A stretch of 33,199 nucleotides of DNA from a virus. Below the pieces are notes generated by a model. That model made no database searches, was not told where the DNA came from, and was given only the letters and a program-made list of their open reading frames with translations. A program made the translations under genes and the position numbers. Location of the stretch: the IMG/VR virus record IMGVR_UViG_3300032116_000787, positions 1 to 33,199 of that record, one strand, 5' to 3'. This document shows, in pieces, positions 4,485 to 26,283 of this stretch (the first letter of the stretch is position 1; each line of letters starts with the position of its first letter).

Positions 4485-5438
4485 TCAGATGGAGGTGCCC
4501 GTCTCCACGCGGTACAGCGCTTCCTCGCGGAAACGCGCCCAACCGATCAGGGCCTTCCAGCCGATCGGGCGGAAACGCATCAGCTTGTCGGTCACCGGGC
4601 CGATCACGACCTGCGGCTCGTACCCGACAGCCTCAGCAAGAGCCTGCTGGCCCATGATGATCGTGCGGTGATCCTTCGCGGACGCCGCACCATCAGTCGC
4701 CACATAGGTGCGGGGCGACTCGATGAAGAACGCACCCTCGTACACGCCGAGGACACCGTTCCAAATGTCCGACGCGCCGGAGTACTCGTGCGGCGACCGC
4801 CACGCGGCGTTGCCCGACTCCTTGCGGAGATCGTGCGAAACGTCCGGGTGGATGTAGCAGCCGTACAGGCCGTTCACCAGCGGAAGGGCGTTGTTGCCGC
4901 GCAGCTTCGCCACCGTGTAGCGGACGTGCGCCGACGAGAACGTGTCAGCCGAGGTGAGCGTGGTGCCGTTACCCGAGGTGCGGACAGCGCCCGCCGTCGA
5001 GAAGATGGCGTTCGAGCCCTGGCGGAGAACGTCACGCACAATCTGGTCAAGCGAGTCGGCCAGGTTGTAGGCAACGATGTTGGCAACAGCCGGGTCCACA
5101 TCCGACAGGGACGTGAACTGAAGCTTGGCCGTCGGGATGACAGCGTTGCCGTACTCGTTGAGGGTCACGTCCACGTACGACGTGTTCGACAGGGCCACGC
5201 TGTCCGGGTCCACGTTCTCGGTGAGAGCCGTGGTCGCGGCAGCGAGGTCAACGTACTTCTGGAACCGCACCGTCGAACCAGGGTTCGACAGGTCCGCCGG
5301 CCGCTTCGTCGCTGCCTGCCGGAACATCGGCTGGGAGCGCAGAGCGAACTCAACGTACTTGTCGTACGCGGTGGCAATCAGGTTAGTGATGCCAGTCTGG
5401 TTCGAGATGGTGGCGGTACCGGTAAAGGTGTTAGGCAC
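4485..5438 (-). CDS. major capsid protein, 317 aa
   Basis: GTG start at 5438, with AAAGG about 11 nt upstream. The protein has the layout of HK97-fold coat proteins of the P22/N4-gp56 type: an N-terminal helix region (FALRSQPMFRQAATKRP), then GSTVRFQKYVDLAAATTALTENVDPDSVAL, a tyrosine/threonine-rich beta segment, and DPAVANIVAYNLADSLDQIVRDVL (the long spine helix). Later NGLYGCYIHPDVSHDLR and GVYEGAFFIESPR strands are typical of the A-domain. It immediately follows a scaffold-like gene, the normal order in capsid modules. Length is in the usual 300-400 range. Confidence 0.9.
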   Translation of the reverse strand: MPNTFTGTATISNQTGITNLIATAYDKYVEFALRSQPMFRQAATKRPADLSNPGSTVRFQKYVDLAAATTALTENVDPDSVALSNTSYVDVTLNEYGNAVIPTAKLQFTSLSDVDPAVANIVAYNLADSLDQIVRDVLRQGSNAIFSTAGAVRTSGNGTTLTSADTFSSAHVRYTVAKLRGNNALPLVNGLYGCYIHPDVSHDLRKESGNAAWRSPHEYSGASDIWNGVLGVYEGAFFIESPRTYVATDGAASAKDHRTIIMGQQALAEAVGYEPQVVIGPVTDKLMRFRPIGWKALIGWARFREEALYRVETGTSI

Positions 5439-5488: not shown

Positions 5489-6001
5489 TCAGCGGCCGTA
5501 GATGAGGCGGTCCAGTTCCTCCGGGGAGGAAGCGTTCTGGATCGCCGCAAGGGCCTGCGCCTCCGACGTGGCAGGCATCCCACCCGTCGAAGCAGCATTG
5601 ATCTGCTGCATGGCAGCGACATGCTCCGCCGCCATCCCCACCGTCGGAGGCGTGACGGTGCCGGCCAGGAGGTCACCAGGCTGCACCGTGTCGGTGTCCT
5701 GGGAGCTGCTGGGCTGCGGCAGGTTGAACAGGTCCCGGTTCTCAGTGAGCCAGGACTGAACACCGTCAGCGTCCGAAACGTCCGAGGGGATGAACTTGGC
5801 GATCGCAGGGTTCGCGCCAATGTTTGTGAGAGCGTCCTTCACCGACCGGTCCCGCTGCGCCTTAGACAGCTCCGCAAGTTGAGCCGCCATCTGCTCGTTC
5901 TGCTTCTGAGCCTTCTTCAACGCATCGCGCAGAGCCTTCGGACCTTCGCCCTGGTCACCCAGGTCGTTGTCATCGAAGTCGTCCCACTGGTTGTTGCTCA
6001 T
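5489..6001 (-). CDS. capsid scaffolding protein, 170 aa
   Basis: ATG 6001 has a clear ribosome site (AAGGGAG, 9-10 nt upstream). The protein is acidic at the N-terminus (DDFDDNDLGDQGEG), then a Gln/Lys/Ala coiled coil (residues ~22-55) and a flexible Pro/Ser/Gln/Thr-rich C-terminal half. It sits directly upstream of the capsid gene. Size, charge, coiled coil and position all fit a scaffold that guides procapsid assembly. No protease motif is seen. Confidence 0.8.
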   Translation of the reverse strand: MSNNQWDDFDDNDLGDQGEGPKALRDALKKAQKQNEQMAAQLAELSKAQRDRSVKDALTNIGANPAIAKFIPSDVSDADGVQSWLTENRDLFNLPQPSSSQDTDTVQPGDLLAGTVTPPTVGMAAEHVAAMQQINAASTGGMPATSEAQALAAIQNASSPEELDRLIYGR

Positions 6002-6093: not shown

Positions 6094-6167
6094 CACACCG
6101 GGGCCGGTCGGTCCGGTGTGGGTCTATGGGCGGCGGTTGCGCCGCATCACACACGCTGCTAGCGTGT
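6094..6167. promoter_or_regulatory. hairpin cluster in the 303-bp gap before the scaffold gene
   Basis: The gap 6002-6304 has no gene apart from the tRNA-like element at its right end. It contains an 8-bp stem (CACACCGG 6094-6101 / CCGGTGTG 6113-6120), a 5-bp stem (CGGCG 6131-6135 / CGCCG 6140-6144) and a 6-bp stem (ACACGC 6151-6156 / GCGTGT 6162-6167), followed toward the scaffold gene by a C-rich tract around 6044-6066. They may act as terminator, RNA-processing or stability signals that let the scaffold/capsid message be set at its own level. No convincing -35/-10 pair was found. Confidence 0.5.
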
Positions 6168-6224: not shown

Positions 6225-6303
6225 TGGAGGCGCCCGGAATCGAACCGGGGTCCAACCCGGAGCCGCATGCGGCCCTACCGGATTGTCGAAACCCTCCGCC
6301 CCC
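6225..6303 (-). ncRNA. 79-nt tRNA-like element resembling a tmRNA without its message domain
   Basis: Read on the minus strand, GGGGGCG (6303-6297) pairs with CGCCTCC (6232-6226) as a 7-bp acceptor stem whose third pair is G3-U70, the alanyl-tRNA synthetase identity pair, followed by discriminator A (6225). A perfect T-arm is present: stem CCCGG (6249-6245), loop TTCGATT, stem CCGGG (6237-6233). Ten bases from the 5' end comes GGTTTCGAC, and GGAC lies just before the T-stem; both are hallmarks of tmRNA ends as I recall them. There is no canonical anticodon arm; bases 6283-6250 instead form an imperfect long hairpin capped by the palindrome GCCGCATGCGGC. CCA is not encoded. It starts two bases after the upstream gene's stop. 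A full tmRNA is about 350-400 nt, so this is either a minimal tmRNA-derived RNA, a degenerate tRNA, or an att-like remnant. Confidence 0.6.
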
Positions 6304-6304
6304 G

Positions 6305-7276
6305 TTACAGGGCCGTGTTGTCCCGCGACAGGCTGCCCCTGCGGGCACCGGACGAACCGGAGAACTCGGCCCGCTCACGCGACGCCAGACGCTTACGCGT
6401 CGCAGACGCCTCCTGGCTGGACTCCGCGCCGAACGTTTCAGCCTCAGCCGCCCGAAGGTCGTACCGGCCCTCCGTCGCCCCATACAGGTCCGACAGGCGG
6501 GAAGCGTCCGGCATCAACTGCCCAATCTGCTGATACCCCTGGTTCGCCTGCTCCGCAGACACCCCCAGGTCCGCCAGACGGCGGGCCGCATCCTGGCCCA
6601 CGTTGAACCCGGCACGCGACGCAGCGCCACCAATGTCCGCCGCAGCAAGCTGCTTCTCCAACACCGGCATCGCACGCTTCTCGTCCAGAAAATAGGCGGC
6701 CAGTTCGTTCACACCCACCCCGTAGTAGTCGTACAGGGCCTTGCGGGTTTCCTCCGGGGCGTCGAACACGGCACGCTTCGCCGCAGCGACACGCTGCTGC
6801 ACCTCGTTCGCGGACACATCCCCAGCGATCCAGTTGCGGAAATCGTCCGTCGAGTCGTAGAACCCGGTGGGCATTCCGGCGGCGCGCAACGTTTGCGCGT
6901 ACTGCCGTTCCATAGCGATGTACTCGGCGGGGGACAGGGTGGACAGGCCGGCCTTCGCGCGGTCCTCGTTCGCCGCGAACCGCTGCTTGTACTCCTTCGT
7001 GTCCCTCAGCATGATGTTGATGGTGTCCGCCCCGTACCCCTGGCGGATGTAGTCAGCGATCACCGGCACCAGCGACGACAGGCCGTAGTCGTCAAACACG
7101 GCCTTCAACGCAACAAACGCGTCACGCCGCTCACCGCTCATGAAGTCGGCGTACGTCAACTGCGGGGGCTTCAACCCCTCAGCGGCGTTCGCCTTCGCAT
7201 ATGCGGCCTCACCCTGGGTCACTTTGCCGTCGAGGGCGAAAAAGTCCATCCACTCTTGCTGCAAGTTCTCAGCCAC
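6305..7276 (-). CDS. probable internal virion/ejection protein, 323 aa
   Basis: GTG start at 7276, 3 bp after the stop of the preceding gene. Almost entirely helical and soluble, rich in Ala, Tyr, Asp and Arg (for example DYGLSSLVPVIADYIRQGYGADTINIMLRDTKEYKQRFAANEDRA shortened here by meaning: a long amphipathic region at residues ~55-100). The C-terminal tail is Ser/Arg rich and probably flexible. It resembles its neighbour of 294 aa in style (phrases such as 'IRQGYG' plus 'RDTKEYKQRF'), suggesting related helical repeats. Position between portal and scaffold with two similar proteins fits head-internal proteins ejected with the DNA. Function is inferred. Confidence 0.7.
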   Translation of the reverse strand: MAENLQQEWMDFFALDGKVTQGEAAYAKANAAEGLKPPQLTYADFMSGERRDAFVALKAVFDDYGLSSLVPVIADYIRQGYGADTINIMLRDTKEYKQRFAANEDRAKAGLSTLSPAEYIAMERQYAQTLRAAGMPTGFYDSTDDFRNWIAGDVSANEVQQRVAAAKRAVFDAPEETRKALYDYYGVGVNELAAYFLDEKRAMPVLEKQLAAADIGGAASRAGFNVGQDAARRLADLGVSAEQANQGYQQIGQLMPDASRLSDLYGATEGRYDLRAAEAETFGAESSQEASATRKRLASRERAEFSGSSGARRGSLSRDNTAL

Positions 7277-24147: not shown

Positions 24148-24561
24148 CTACGCAAGGGGGGATGCTGCCGCTTCCCGTGCAGCCCGCCGCATCGCCCGCA
24201 GCTCACGCTTCCGCGCCGCATCAGCCCCCGACGCGACACGCTTGATCCCCGCCCGCCGTTTCGCCTCCGCACTGCACGCCGCGCACCGCTTCTGCGACCA
24301 ATCCCAATGCTCCGACCGCAGATGCAACCCCGCACCGCACATTTCCTTCCGTGCCCCGGTCACCAGCCGGCGCAACTGCTCCACCCGCAGACCGGCCCAC
24401 ACGCCATGCGTTTCACGATTGTCGATCGCGGCCCGCAAACATGCCTCACGGGACAGGCACCGGGTTTGGCAGAACCGGACCGCTTCGGTTTCCTGCTCGT
24501 AACTGTCCGGGTAGAACAGGTCCGGCTCGGGGTGGTTACGGCACGCCCACTCACTCAACAT
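24148..24561 (-). CDS. WhiB-family iron-sulfur regulator with extra zinc-binding tail, 137 aa
   Basis: ATG 24561 has a good ribosome site (AAAGGA) and overlaps the methyltransferase stop by 7 bp. Four cysteines at residues 7, 31, 35 and 41 and the GVWAG turn (53-57) are the WhiB signature for a 4Fe-4S cluster. The inner spacing is CxxxC, whereas most WhiB proteins have CxxC. After the core, residues ~75-96 contain C75, H80, C93 and C96, resembling the zinc knuckle of HNH-type domains. The tail is Arg/Ala rich and basic. WhiB proteins act with the host principal sigma factor; phage versions can interfere with host WhiB. It supports an actinobacterial host. Confidence 0.85.
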   Translation of the reverse strand: MLSEWACRNHPEPDLFYPDSYEQETEAVRFCQTRCLSREACLRAAIDNRETHGVWAGLRVEQLRRLVTGARKEMCGAGLHLRSEHWDWSQKRCAACSAEAKRRAGIKRVASGADAARKRELRAMRRAAREAAASPLA

Positions 24562-26030
24562 CCCAGGTTCCTTTCCATATCATCCAACACACGTAGCGCA
24601 AGCACCGCCTGCTGCGGCACCACGCCATTACCCAGTGCTTTCAACTGCTGGTTACGGGTCAGGCCGATCGCCGGGTCGGTGACGTGACCGGCGGGCAGGC
24701 CCATCAGCCACTCCACGAACGGCGGGCTCAGGCGGGGTCGTCCGTTCGCTCCCGGCTCGGTGGGGGCGGGGGCGGGTCGTCCGACGACGTGCTCCCAGCG
24801 GGCGATGGCGGGGGCGTACTGGCCCCAATCCGTGCCAGCGCGTTCCCTAGGTTCTGCGGCTGATCCAGCGGGCGCTCCCACACCGTCTGATTGCGTTCCT
24901 CGCCGTTCTGCGCTCGCGGCGTCGGCAGGAGGCTGACCGTCGTCCGCAGATCCATCCCACCGTCGCCGTGATGGCCCGCGCCGTTCGTATCCGACGTGCG
25001 CGGCGTCGGTAGCAACGATGAAGATCCGGGCGCGTCCGTGGGCAGCTCCGGCATCGGCAGCGCGAACAACTCCCCACCGCGCGTCATACCCGAGGCGGGA
25101 AAGGTCGTTGACAACAGTGTTGAGTGCGTATCGCTGAACAGGTCGAGTTGCGGGACCGTCCACTCGCCGTCCACAAGCCGGGCAATCAAAGTTGCCCCAG
25201 GCGGCGGGGGTGCGGCCTTCCGGCTCGGACCCTTCTTGTTCAACGACTTCAAGCGACGGTGTAGCCGCTGCGCCTCGTCCCACCCCTCGTCCGTCCAGCG
25301 CCGGTCGTCCCCCCGGTACTTCGGCTGCTGCTGGCGCAGCTCCTCGACCGCGAGCGCCACCTGCGCCTGCTCCCGCTTCAACATCAGGTGCGGAAGCACC
25401 CGTCGCAGGAACCTCGCAGCCTCCTGGCCGTGGAGGCGCCAGGTCACCACCGCGTCCCACTTCTCCGTCGCTGCGCGGCCCTCCGCGACGATGCCCCCGT
25501 ACTCGTCCCGCATCGCCTCCAAGACGGCCCGCGCCTTCTCCGTCATCCCGAAGTCCACTCGTGGGCCGGCCGAACGCTTCCCCATCGTCAGAAGGACGCA
25601 GCCCTCCCCGTCCAACAGGCCAGCCGCATACGCATCGATCCTGGGGTTCATCGAACATTCCTCCTGAGCTGATTAGGCCGCGCACGTTTTCAAGAACGAC
25701 AAGCGACGGGCGCAGCGCCCGGATCGCCTCAACGATGTAGGGCCACAGGTGACGCTCGTCCTTCACGCCACGACGTTTGCCCGCGTGGCTGAACGGCTGG
25801 CAGGGGAACCCGGCGGTGAGGATGTCGACGGGCTCGACCTCCCACCACTTTGCGGTCGTCAGGTCCCCCAGGTTCGGCACGTCGGGCCAGTGGTGGGCGA
25901 GGATGCGCGAGGGCGCGTCGTCGTACTCGCAGAACCAGGCGGGCGTGGCCCCGGTGCATGCCTCCACGGCGAGGTCGAGGCCGCCGTAGCCGGAGCAGAG
26001 GCTCCCAATGCGCAGTTGATTATTCAACAT
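24555..26030 (-). CDS. DNA cytosine-5 methyltransferase with a long insertion, 491 aa
   Basis: ATG 26030 follows the 50-aa gene's stop by 2 bp (TGACCATG); an upstream extension of 68 codons is the wrong frame of two small genes. Motif I IGSLCSGYGG (8-17), motif IV GFPCQPFS (catalytic Cys ~76), motif VI LENVRG (~112-117), motif VIII GAAHGRARIFIVA (~327-339), motif IX-region RLSPPFVEWLMGLP and motif X RNQQLKALGNGVVPQQA are all present. Between VI and VIII lie ~150 extra Gly/Arg/Ala-rich residues with poor GC3; in this stretch another frame encodes a LAGLIDADG endonuclease (25651-24728). It probably modifies phage DNA to evade restriction, or regulates. All motifs are intact, so it may be active, with the insert as a loop. 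Confidence 0.85.
   Translation of the reverse strand: MLNNQLRIGSLCSGYGGLDLAVEACTGATPAWFCEYDDAPSRILAHHWPDVPNLGDLTTAKWWEVEPVDILTAGFPCQPFSHAGKRRGVKDERHLWPYIVEAIRALRPSLVVLENVRGLISSGGMFDEPQDRCVCGWPVGRGGLRPSDDGEAFGRPTSGLRDDGEGAGRLGGDAGRVRGHRRGGPRSDGEVGRGGDLAPPRPGGCEVPATGASAPDVEAGAGAGGARGRGAAPAAAEVPGGRPALDGRGVGRGAAATPSLEVVEQEGSEPEGRTPAAWGNFDCPACGRRVDGPATRPVQRYALNTVVNDLSRLGYDARWGVVRAADAGAAHGRARIFIVATDAAHVGYERRGPSRRRWDGSADDGQPPADAASAERRGTQSDGVGAPAGSAAEPRERAGTDWGQYAPAIARWEHVVGRPAPAPTEPGANGRPRLSPPFVEWLMGLPAGHVTDPAIGLTRNQQLKALGNGVVPQQAVLALRVLDDMERNLGC
24728..25651 (-). CDS. LAGLIDADG homing-endonuclease-like protein overprinted on the methyltransferase, 307 aa
   Basis: ATG 25651 lies inside the methyltransferase gene in another frame and has a near-perfect ribosome site, AGGAGG, 8 nt upstream. 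Residues 7-18 (AYAAGLLDGEGC) are a LAGLIDADG motif. The following ~110 residues fit the single-motif family (EKARAVLEAMRDEYGG; FLRRVLPHLMLKREQA). A single motif implies a homodimer. Codons in this frame are strongly GC3, while the methyltransferase frame there is not. From residue ~140 the gene reads the methyltransferase motif VIII and target region in its own frame (SGMTRGGELFALP; SLLPTPRTSDTNG), still with high GC3. It could be a mobile element lodged without breaking the host gene. Confidence 0.75.
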   Translation of the reverse strand: MNPRIDAYAAGLLDGEGCVLLTMGKRSAGPRVDFGMTEKARAVLEAMRDEYGGIVAEGRAATEKWDAVVTWRLHGQEAARFLRRVLPHLMLKREQAQVALAVEELRQQQPKYRGDDRRWTDEGWDEAQRLHRRLKSLNKKGPSRKAAPPPPGATLIARLVDGEWTVPQLDLFSDTHSTLLSTTFPASGMTRGGELFALPMPELPTDAPGSSSLLPTPRTSDTNGAGHHGDGGMDLRTTVSLLPTPRAQNGEERNQTVWERPLDQPQNLGNALARIGASTPPPSPAGSTSSDDPPPPPPSRERTDDPA

Positions 26031-26032
26031 GG

Positions 26033-26185
26033 TCAGCTTCGGTGGTTTCGGTGTAGCCGGCGGAACCGCCACACCGGCCAGCGTGTGTCTCCGTGGGCGG
26101 TGGCCTCGTAGTAGGCGCGGCAGCATCGCTCGCACTCGGGGAGCAACGTGTCGGGGTTGACGTGCGGCATCGGCGGGAGGGTCAC
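26033..26185 (-). CDS. small protein with Cys pair, 50 aa
   Basis: GTG 26185 overlaps the upstream TGA (GTGA) and ends 2 bp before the methyltransferase start. Product: MTLPPMPHVNPDTLLPECER, then CCRAYYEATAHGDTRW and a basic end (WRFRRLHRNHRS). Amino acid composition and tight packing support it; the same DNA in the methyltransferase frame is Arg/Pro nonsense. Function unknown. Confidence 0.6.
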   Translation of the reverse strand: MTLPPMPHVNPDTLLPECERCCRAYYEATAHGDTRWPVWRFRRLHRNHRS

Positions 26186-26283
26186 GCCTCACCGTCCGGC
26201 TCTGCGTCGAGGATGCCGAAAACGGCGCAGGCACACCCGTCCCCGGTCCAGAAGTCGCAGAGCTCCTGCCCGCACCTGCTCAC
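26182..26283 (-). CDS. micro-protein, Cys-rich, 33 aa
   Basis: GTG 26283 overlaps the stop of the 163-aa gene, and its own TGA overlaps the next GTG. Product: MSRCGQELCDFWTGDGCACA, then VFGILDAEPDGEA. Four cysteines in 19 residues suggest zinc or redox binding. It is too short for homology calls; coupling is the main support. Confidence 0.55.
   Translation of the reverse strand: MSRCGQELCDFWTGDGCACAVFGILDAEPDGEA

Follow-up and report, generated by a model that had tools for sequence, protein, structure and literature searches.

Free-standing tRNA-like domains (TLDs) of tmRNA have been described in a few settings. Surveys from 2014 and 2025 hold only one phage case, the TLD-only ('CDS-less') tmRNA of mycobacteriophage DS6A (PMC4131195, PMC11915505). 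In E. coli the DS6A form acts as an inhibitor of the cell's own tmRNA (PMC11915505), and a similar molecule has this effect in chargeable and unchargeable form alike, perhaps through titration of SmpB (PMC4131195). The plastids of Mallomonadaceae contain CDS-less tmRNAs of about 65 bp (two cases), and mitochondrial tmRNAs that lack a tag frame are retained alongside SmpB (PMC11915505). In these surveys the kind of molecule itself is already known, from one phage and two plastids (PMC4131195, PMC11915505).

We examined a 33.2-kb viral contig (33,199 nucleotides, all of which we refer to as the window) that carries a 79-nt element of this kind just upstream of its head genes. The phage is apparently actinobacterial, judging by a gene for a WhiB-like protein and by head genes akin to those of the Streptomyces Beephvirinae. 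Searching INPHARED at the DNA level with the window region gave no match. The element and its surroundings are as follows.

4485..5438, minus strand: major capsid protein (phrog_1357)
5489..6001, minus strand: downstream gene, phrog_7813, with an orthologue in phage Dennebes that bears the annotation scaffolding protein
6094..6120, minus strand: second hairpin in the same slot, with loop ACCGACCGGCC, common to relatives
6225..6303, minus strand: TLD-only tmRNA-like RNA gene, 79 nt, matching RF00023
6225..6232, minus strand: 3' acceptor strand CGCCTCC and discriminator A
6233..6249, minus strand: T-arm, CCCGG TTCGATT CCGGG
6250..6253, minus strand: GGAC before the T-stem, its first G pairing with C19
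6253..6285, minus strand: capped arm, with C19-G51 and a 7-bp stem, a purine internal loop and the hairpin CCG(CATG)CGG
6285..6293, minus strand: D-loop-type motif GGTTTCGAC, common to tmRNA
6297..6303, minus strand: 5' acceptor strand GGGGGCG, pairing with 6226-6232 (G3-U70)
6305..7276, minus strand: upstream gene, phrog_8424, with its stop 1 nt before the RNA

Judged from its sequence and covariation, the element is a phage RNA gene for a free-standing TLD of tmRNA. Read from 6303 to 6225, it begins GGGGGCG GAG GGTTTCGAC AATCCGG TAGGG CCGCATGCGG and continues after CCGCATGCGG with CT CCGGGTT GGAC CCCGG TTCGATT CCGGG CGCCTCC A. An earlier note on this DNA had placed an RNA resembling a tmRNA without its coding domain at 6225-6303; the observation and its coordinates were confirmed, with the RNA on the minus strand. 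The acceptor pairs at 7/7 positions with G3-U70, the T-stem at 5/5, and the arm through C19-G51 and its 7-bp stem; the discriminator is A, GGTTTCGAC starts after exactly 10 bases, GGAC precedes the T-stem, and the UAA of the upstream virion gene lies one base before G1, on the side away from the scaffold and capsid genes. CCA is not encoded, and CAG follows A73. The capped arm (6253..6285, minus strand) stands in for the anticodon arm and the whole message domain, so that the RNA has a 31-nt arm only and is without a tag reading frame, resume codon or pseudoknots.

The Rfam tmRNA model RF00023, a check that the earlier note had proposed, matched the element in the window at 58.9 bits (cmscan; E = 8.5e-21; cut-off 47). 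The alignment spans model positions 1-374 with 303 positions deleted, corresponding to the message and pseudoknot region. The R1 model gave 90.1 bits on a contig identical to the window (L001), the sequence of which is itself in R1. ARAGORN reported nothing for the 79-nt RNA, and no anticodon stem-loop is present. We ruled out a complete tmRNA, as resume codon and tag frame are absent, and also a permuted tmRNA, as the order runs from 5' acceptor to 3' acceptor and RF04321 scored 15.1 bits against a cut-off of 47. The signature of the element had 0 matches in 59.8 Mb of first-order Markov sequence modelled on the window. Its folding z-score of -1.41 is unremarkable by itself, and as folding energy alone is weak, it is the covariance model and the comparison with relatives that carry the case for the RNA.

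For this comparison, a first pattern, TTCGAC-(18-48)-GGACNNNGGTTCRANTCC-(7)-TCCA, which itself fixes bases 70-73, matched at least 120 stretches in IMG/VR, nearly all of them true elements with a 7-bp acceptor in the right place. Many of its matches in genome contigs were rejected as ordinary host tmRNAs in which TTCGAC happens to occur close to the 3' pseudoknot. We aligned 79 non-redundant elements by their fixed segments with a script, because MAFFT misplaced the acceptor strands of elements with longer D-segments. Compensated variation was found at acceptor pairs 4:69, 5:68 and 6:67, in the T-stem and in the arm stem, while G1-C72, G2-C71 and G3-U70 were invariant in 79/79 (bases 70-73 being fixed by the pattern). 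In alignment A4, 96% of cells pair, 15/22 pairs show double changes, and covariation reaches 0.728, compared with 0.09-0.14 for slid controls.

As the first pattern fixes bases 70-73, two further tests of base 70 were made. With A, C or G at this position the first pattern had 0 matches, versus at least 120 with U70. In a second pattern the sole fixed parts were the common capped hairpin, the T-loop and a CCA, which left the D-loop, GGAC and base 70 free. Among the 85 distinct elements that it retrieved, which represent one arm subtype and include related sequences that are not independent events, U70 was present in 85/85 and G3 in 84/85, against exact TTCGAC in 45/85 and GGAC in 56/85. In this set the base that opens GGAC covaries with the one that closes the D-loop motif (C-G or U-A). 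By this comparison of sequences, alanine identity (G3-U70) is the tightest constraint on the element. Taken together, the sequences show that selection acts on an RNA-coding fold that carries alanine identity and lacks anticodon and message.

In the window's own phage group, 14 loci carry the element between phrog_8424 and the scaffold and capsid genes (L001, the window's own sequence, L084, L318, L319, L320, L324, L327, L396, L411, L413, L419, L422, whose contig has the capsid side only, L430 and L463); among them, capsid identity to the nearest query falls as low as 30%. These 14 slot orthologues alone give a covariation of 0.624, compared with 0.04-0.08 for slid controls, in an alignment fitted to the model. 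Some of these loci show a drifted D-loop motif (GGAAAGC, GGTTAGAC) with G3-U70 intact. Conservation and compensatory changes in related phages, both of which the earlier note had named as checks, were thus found, and its description of a tmRNA without a coding domain is upheld by the RF00023 score, the compensatory changes, the conserved slot and the DS6A precedent (PMC4131195, PMC11915505); the replacement of the anticodon arm by a capped hairpin is likewise upheld by covariation of that arm in relatives.

Occupancy of the slot varies. Cultured Streptomyces relatives hold 14-22 ordinary tRNAs there, L396 holds 21 tRNAs together with the TLD element, and among the best 80 capsid relatives the element is present in 5 and most have neither the element nor tRNAs. 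This pattern argues for a tRNA-type gene that comes and goes at a fixed place. The arrays of Beephvirinae also contain unannotated gaps of about 240 nt (L004:5644-5887, L005:5471-5713 and L006:5383-5626).

A second RNA structure, a hairpin with the loop ACCNACCRGCC, lies in the same slot in L314, L007, L315, L316 and others. It occurs in 18/78 loci (800-nt slot) and in none of 536 kb elsewhere, and it matches no Rfam family. Relatives have a CYGGTAGNAAGAGCC farther downstream with which the loop can form a pseudoknot; in the window the hairpin is kept (6094-6120, minus strand), with no evident downstream partner for the loop. Elsewhere in the window, an ORF at 24728-25651 (minus strand) with a LAGLIDADG-like start (AAGLLDGEGCVLL, recognised by eye only) lies out of frame inside a DNA methyltransferase ORF at 24555-26234.

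Across viral loci, the element lies within 1.5 kb of tRNAs in 15/70 non-redundant cases, and 28 element loci have at least 4 tRNAs. The next downstream gene encodes a major head protein in at least 8/47 non-redundant loci, a DnaB-like helicase in 5 and a portal in 3. On the upstream side are, among others, genes for head proteases (5) and terminases (up to 4). That the TLD takes the place of tRNA-Ala in arrays was considered and rejected, as 14/28 array loci also hold a tRNA-Ala. Among cultured phages, TLD-only elements are present in Streptomyces phages LuckySocke, pSt2308, BRock, Riptide and Shaeky (and GiJojo, by blastn only), in Pontimonas phage phiPsal1, upstream of the capsid gene, and in Stenotrophomonas virus Jojan60. 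These copies either have no annotation or are covered by a hypothetical gene. A longer-arm alanine-type variant occurs in Microbacterium phage Katzastrophic just upstream of tRNA-Asn and tRNA-Gln (L229:1439-1527); by blastn, many Microbacterium phages have the same 3' end.

Several weak blastn matches were set aside as full tmRNAs (TyDawg, SRUTV-1, GMA2), permuted tmRNAs (S-CAM1, S-CBWM1, SM1, Rb1, Tunturi_4) or likely att sites (Marshawn, Validus, LMessi). In Tunturiibacter phage Tunturi_4, a gene for an RF-1-domain release factor, possibly ArfB-like, adjoins the permuted tmRNA (L527:319-666), and the two could form a phage ribosome-rescue module. Gordonia phage GMA2 has a pistol ribozyme between tRNA-Trp and tRNA-Gln (L526:1042-1098).

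The element is rare in bacterial genomes. In the phylum of Parafrankia it was found in 1/396, the seed genome only, and there it precedes a prophage terminase gene. Each of five host genomes with a TLD-only element also has a separate full tmRNA (5/5). In one cyanobacterial order, 7/42 genomes match the TLD-only search, and in the arrays inspected the element stands among 14-34 tRNAs. Anticodon-less alanine-type TLD RNAs were seen in large cyanobacterial tRNA arrays (L504-L507, L513-L519), several with GGCATCAC-type D-loops. On two cyanobacterial contigs (L144, L181), a TLD-only element sits beside chromosomal genes of ordinary appearance (TPR, VWA, pyridine-nucleotide oxidoreductase) and not obvious phage genes.

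By analogy with the DS6A form, an inhibitor of host trans-translation is the simplest reading, and we give about an even chance to the proposal that the element is an alanine-charged decoy that engages SmpB and EF-Tu. Its position between genes and among tRNA genes suggests that the RNA would be transcribed along with the late virion genes and excised by tRNA-maturation enzymes, after which CCA would be added to its 3' end. The invariance of G3-U70 suggests that AlaRS would then charge it with alanine, and so lends indirect support to one of the roles that the earlier note had raised. The Ala-TLD, bound by EF-Tu and SmpB, would rival host tmRNA for SmpB and stalled ribosomes and, because it offers neither resume codon nor tag, would spare unfinished phage proteins and mRNAs the tagging and degradation that host trans-translation brings. 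Such binding fits the published inhibition by the DS6A form. The tmRNA model scoring above its cut-off with only the message part deleted, the covariation, the constancy of G3-U70, the full tmRNA in 5/5 hosts, the placement in head modules and tRNA arrays and the published DS6A inhibition all speak for a decoy; the array link would fit a role when infection disturbs decoding. Against it, SmpB titration alone needs no charging (PMC4131195), yet G3-U70 is the strictest feature, the D-loop motif common to tmRNA drifts even in close relatives, and only 5/80 of the best capsid relatives carry the element. The strictness of G3-U70 favours a charged complex at the ribosome, through either competition or tag-less rescue, over pure SmpB titration.

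Tag-less rescue is possible, although we consider it rather unlikely. Here the Ala-TLD and SmpB would enter stalled ribosomes and take over the nascent chain, another factor (RF/ArfB-type or a peptidyl-tRNA hydrolase) would release it, and ribosomes would be recycled with phage proteins left untagged. This would explain why alanine identity is kept more strictly than the D-loop motif and why the element keeps company with phage tRNA sets (the 28 array loci and the cultured phages), and the mitochondrial tmRNAs that persist beside SmpB without a tag frame offer a parallel (PMC11915505). However, the inhibition of tmRNA in E. coli by the DS6A form suits a competitor better than a helper (PMC11915505).

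It is unlikely that the fold serves mainly as a processing signal, with tRNA-type excision giving the capsid message its own 5' end. In unrelated phages (the window's and phiPsal1) the RNA is just upstream of capsid genes, in the window 1 nt after a stop, and major head proteins follow in the at least 8/47 loci given above, but any tRNA would do for this purpose, which leaves the invariant G3-U70 and the missing anticodon unexplained, and numerous copies are found within tRNA arrays or next to genes for helicases or terminases. Some other use of a non-decoding alanine acceptor, for example as a decoy for a host defence that damages tRNAs or as an alanine donor outside translation, is doubtful. 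Strict alanine identity with a variable D-loop would suit it, as would its occurrence in mobile tRNA arrays, both in phages and in some cyanobacteria; yet no single partner gene recurs alongside in most loci, and the tmRNA-type D-loop is exact in about half of the elements. A decayed host tmRNA or prophage attachment site is very improbable: tmRNA genes are common integration sites, and Mycobacterium phages Marshawn and Validus hold a 3'-half fragment beside an integrase, but in contrast to such att-site-type loci (L521, L522) both halves are present here, the phage-specific arm covaries, the slot is kept down to 30% capsid identity, and no integrase is among the 19 window proteins scanned.

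The close counterparts in more than 100 other viral sequences suggest that RNAs of this kind are a common means by which phages disturb host ribosome rescue or substitute for it, and the strictness of G3-U70 speaks for a role of charging that goes further than SmpB titration. More tentatively, many phage lineages may share a distinct family of alanine-charged RNAs without anticodon or message, a device for tag-less rescue or against tagging that would act on stalled ribosomes and belong to the translation kit beside their tRNAs. Ordinary tRNA and tmRNA annotation misses this whole class of phage RNA genes, and its presence in more than 100 viral contigs and several cultured phages makes phage shut-off or replacement of trans-translation directly testable. 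We found no description of a broad phage TLD-only family in the literature, mostly that outside subscription journals; RF00023 scans elsewhere may already label such elements tmRNA, but the family size, the invariant alanine identity and the conserved gene slot appear unreported.

Compared with standard tmRNA (ssrA, RF00023), the element has the same acceptor with G3-U70, GGTTTCGAC, GGAC and T-arm, but lacks the tag frame, pseudoknots and message domain. With tRNA-Ala it shares the acceptor with G3-U70 and the T-arm, whereas it has no anticodon arm or D-stem and its arm ends in a tetraloop-type hairpin. In Beephvirinae, tRNA arrays occupy the same slot, from phrog_8424 to scaffold/capsid, with 14-22 ordinary tRNAs and no TLD in the isolates checked. 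The CDS-less tmRNAs of Mallomonadaceae plastids are likewise a TLD without a message, although organellar. Relative to the DS6A form, going by its published description, the present elements constitute a broad family in which the capped arm and the gene slot are conserved.
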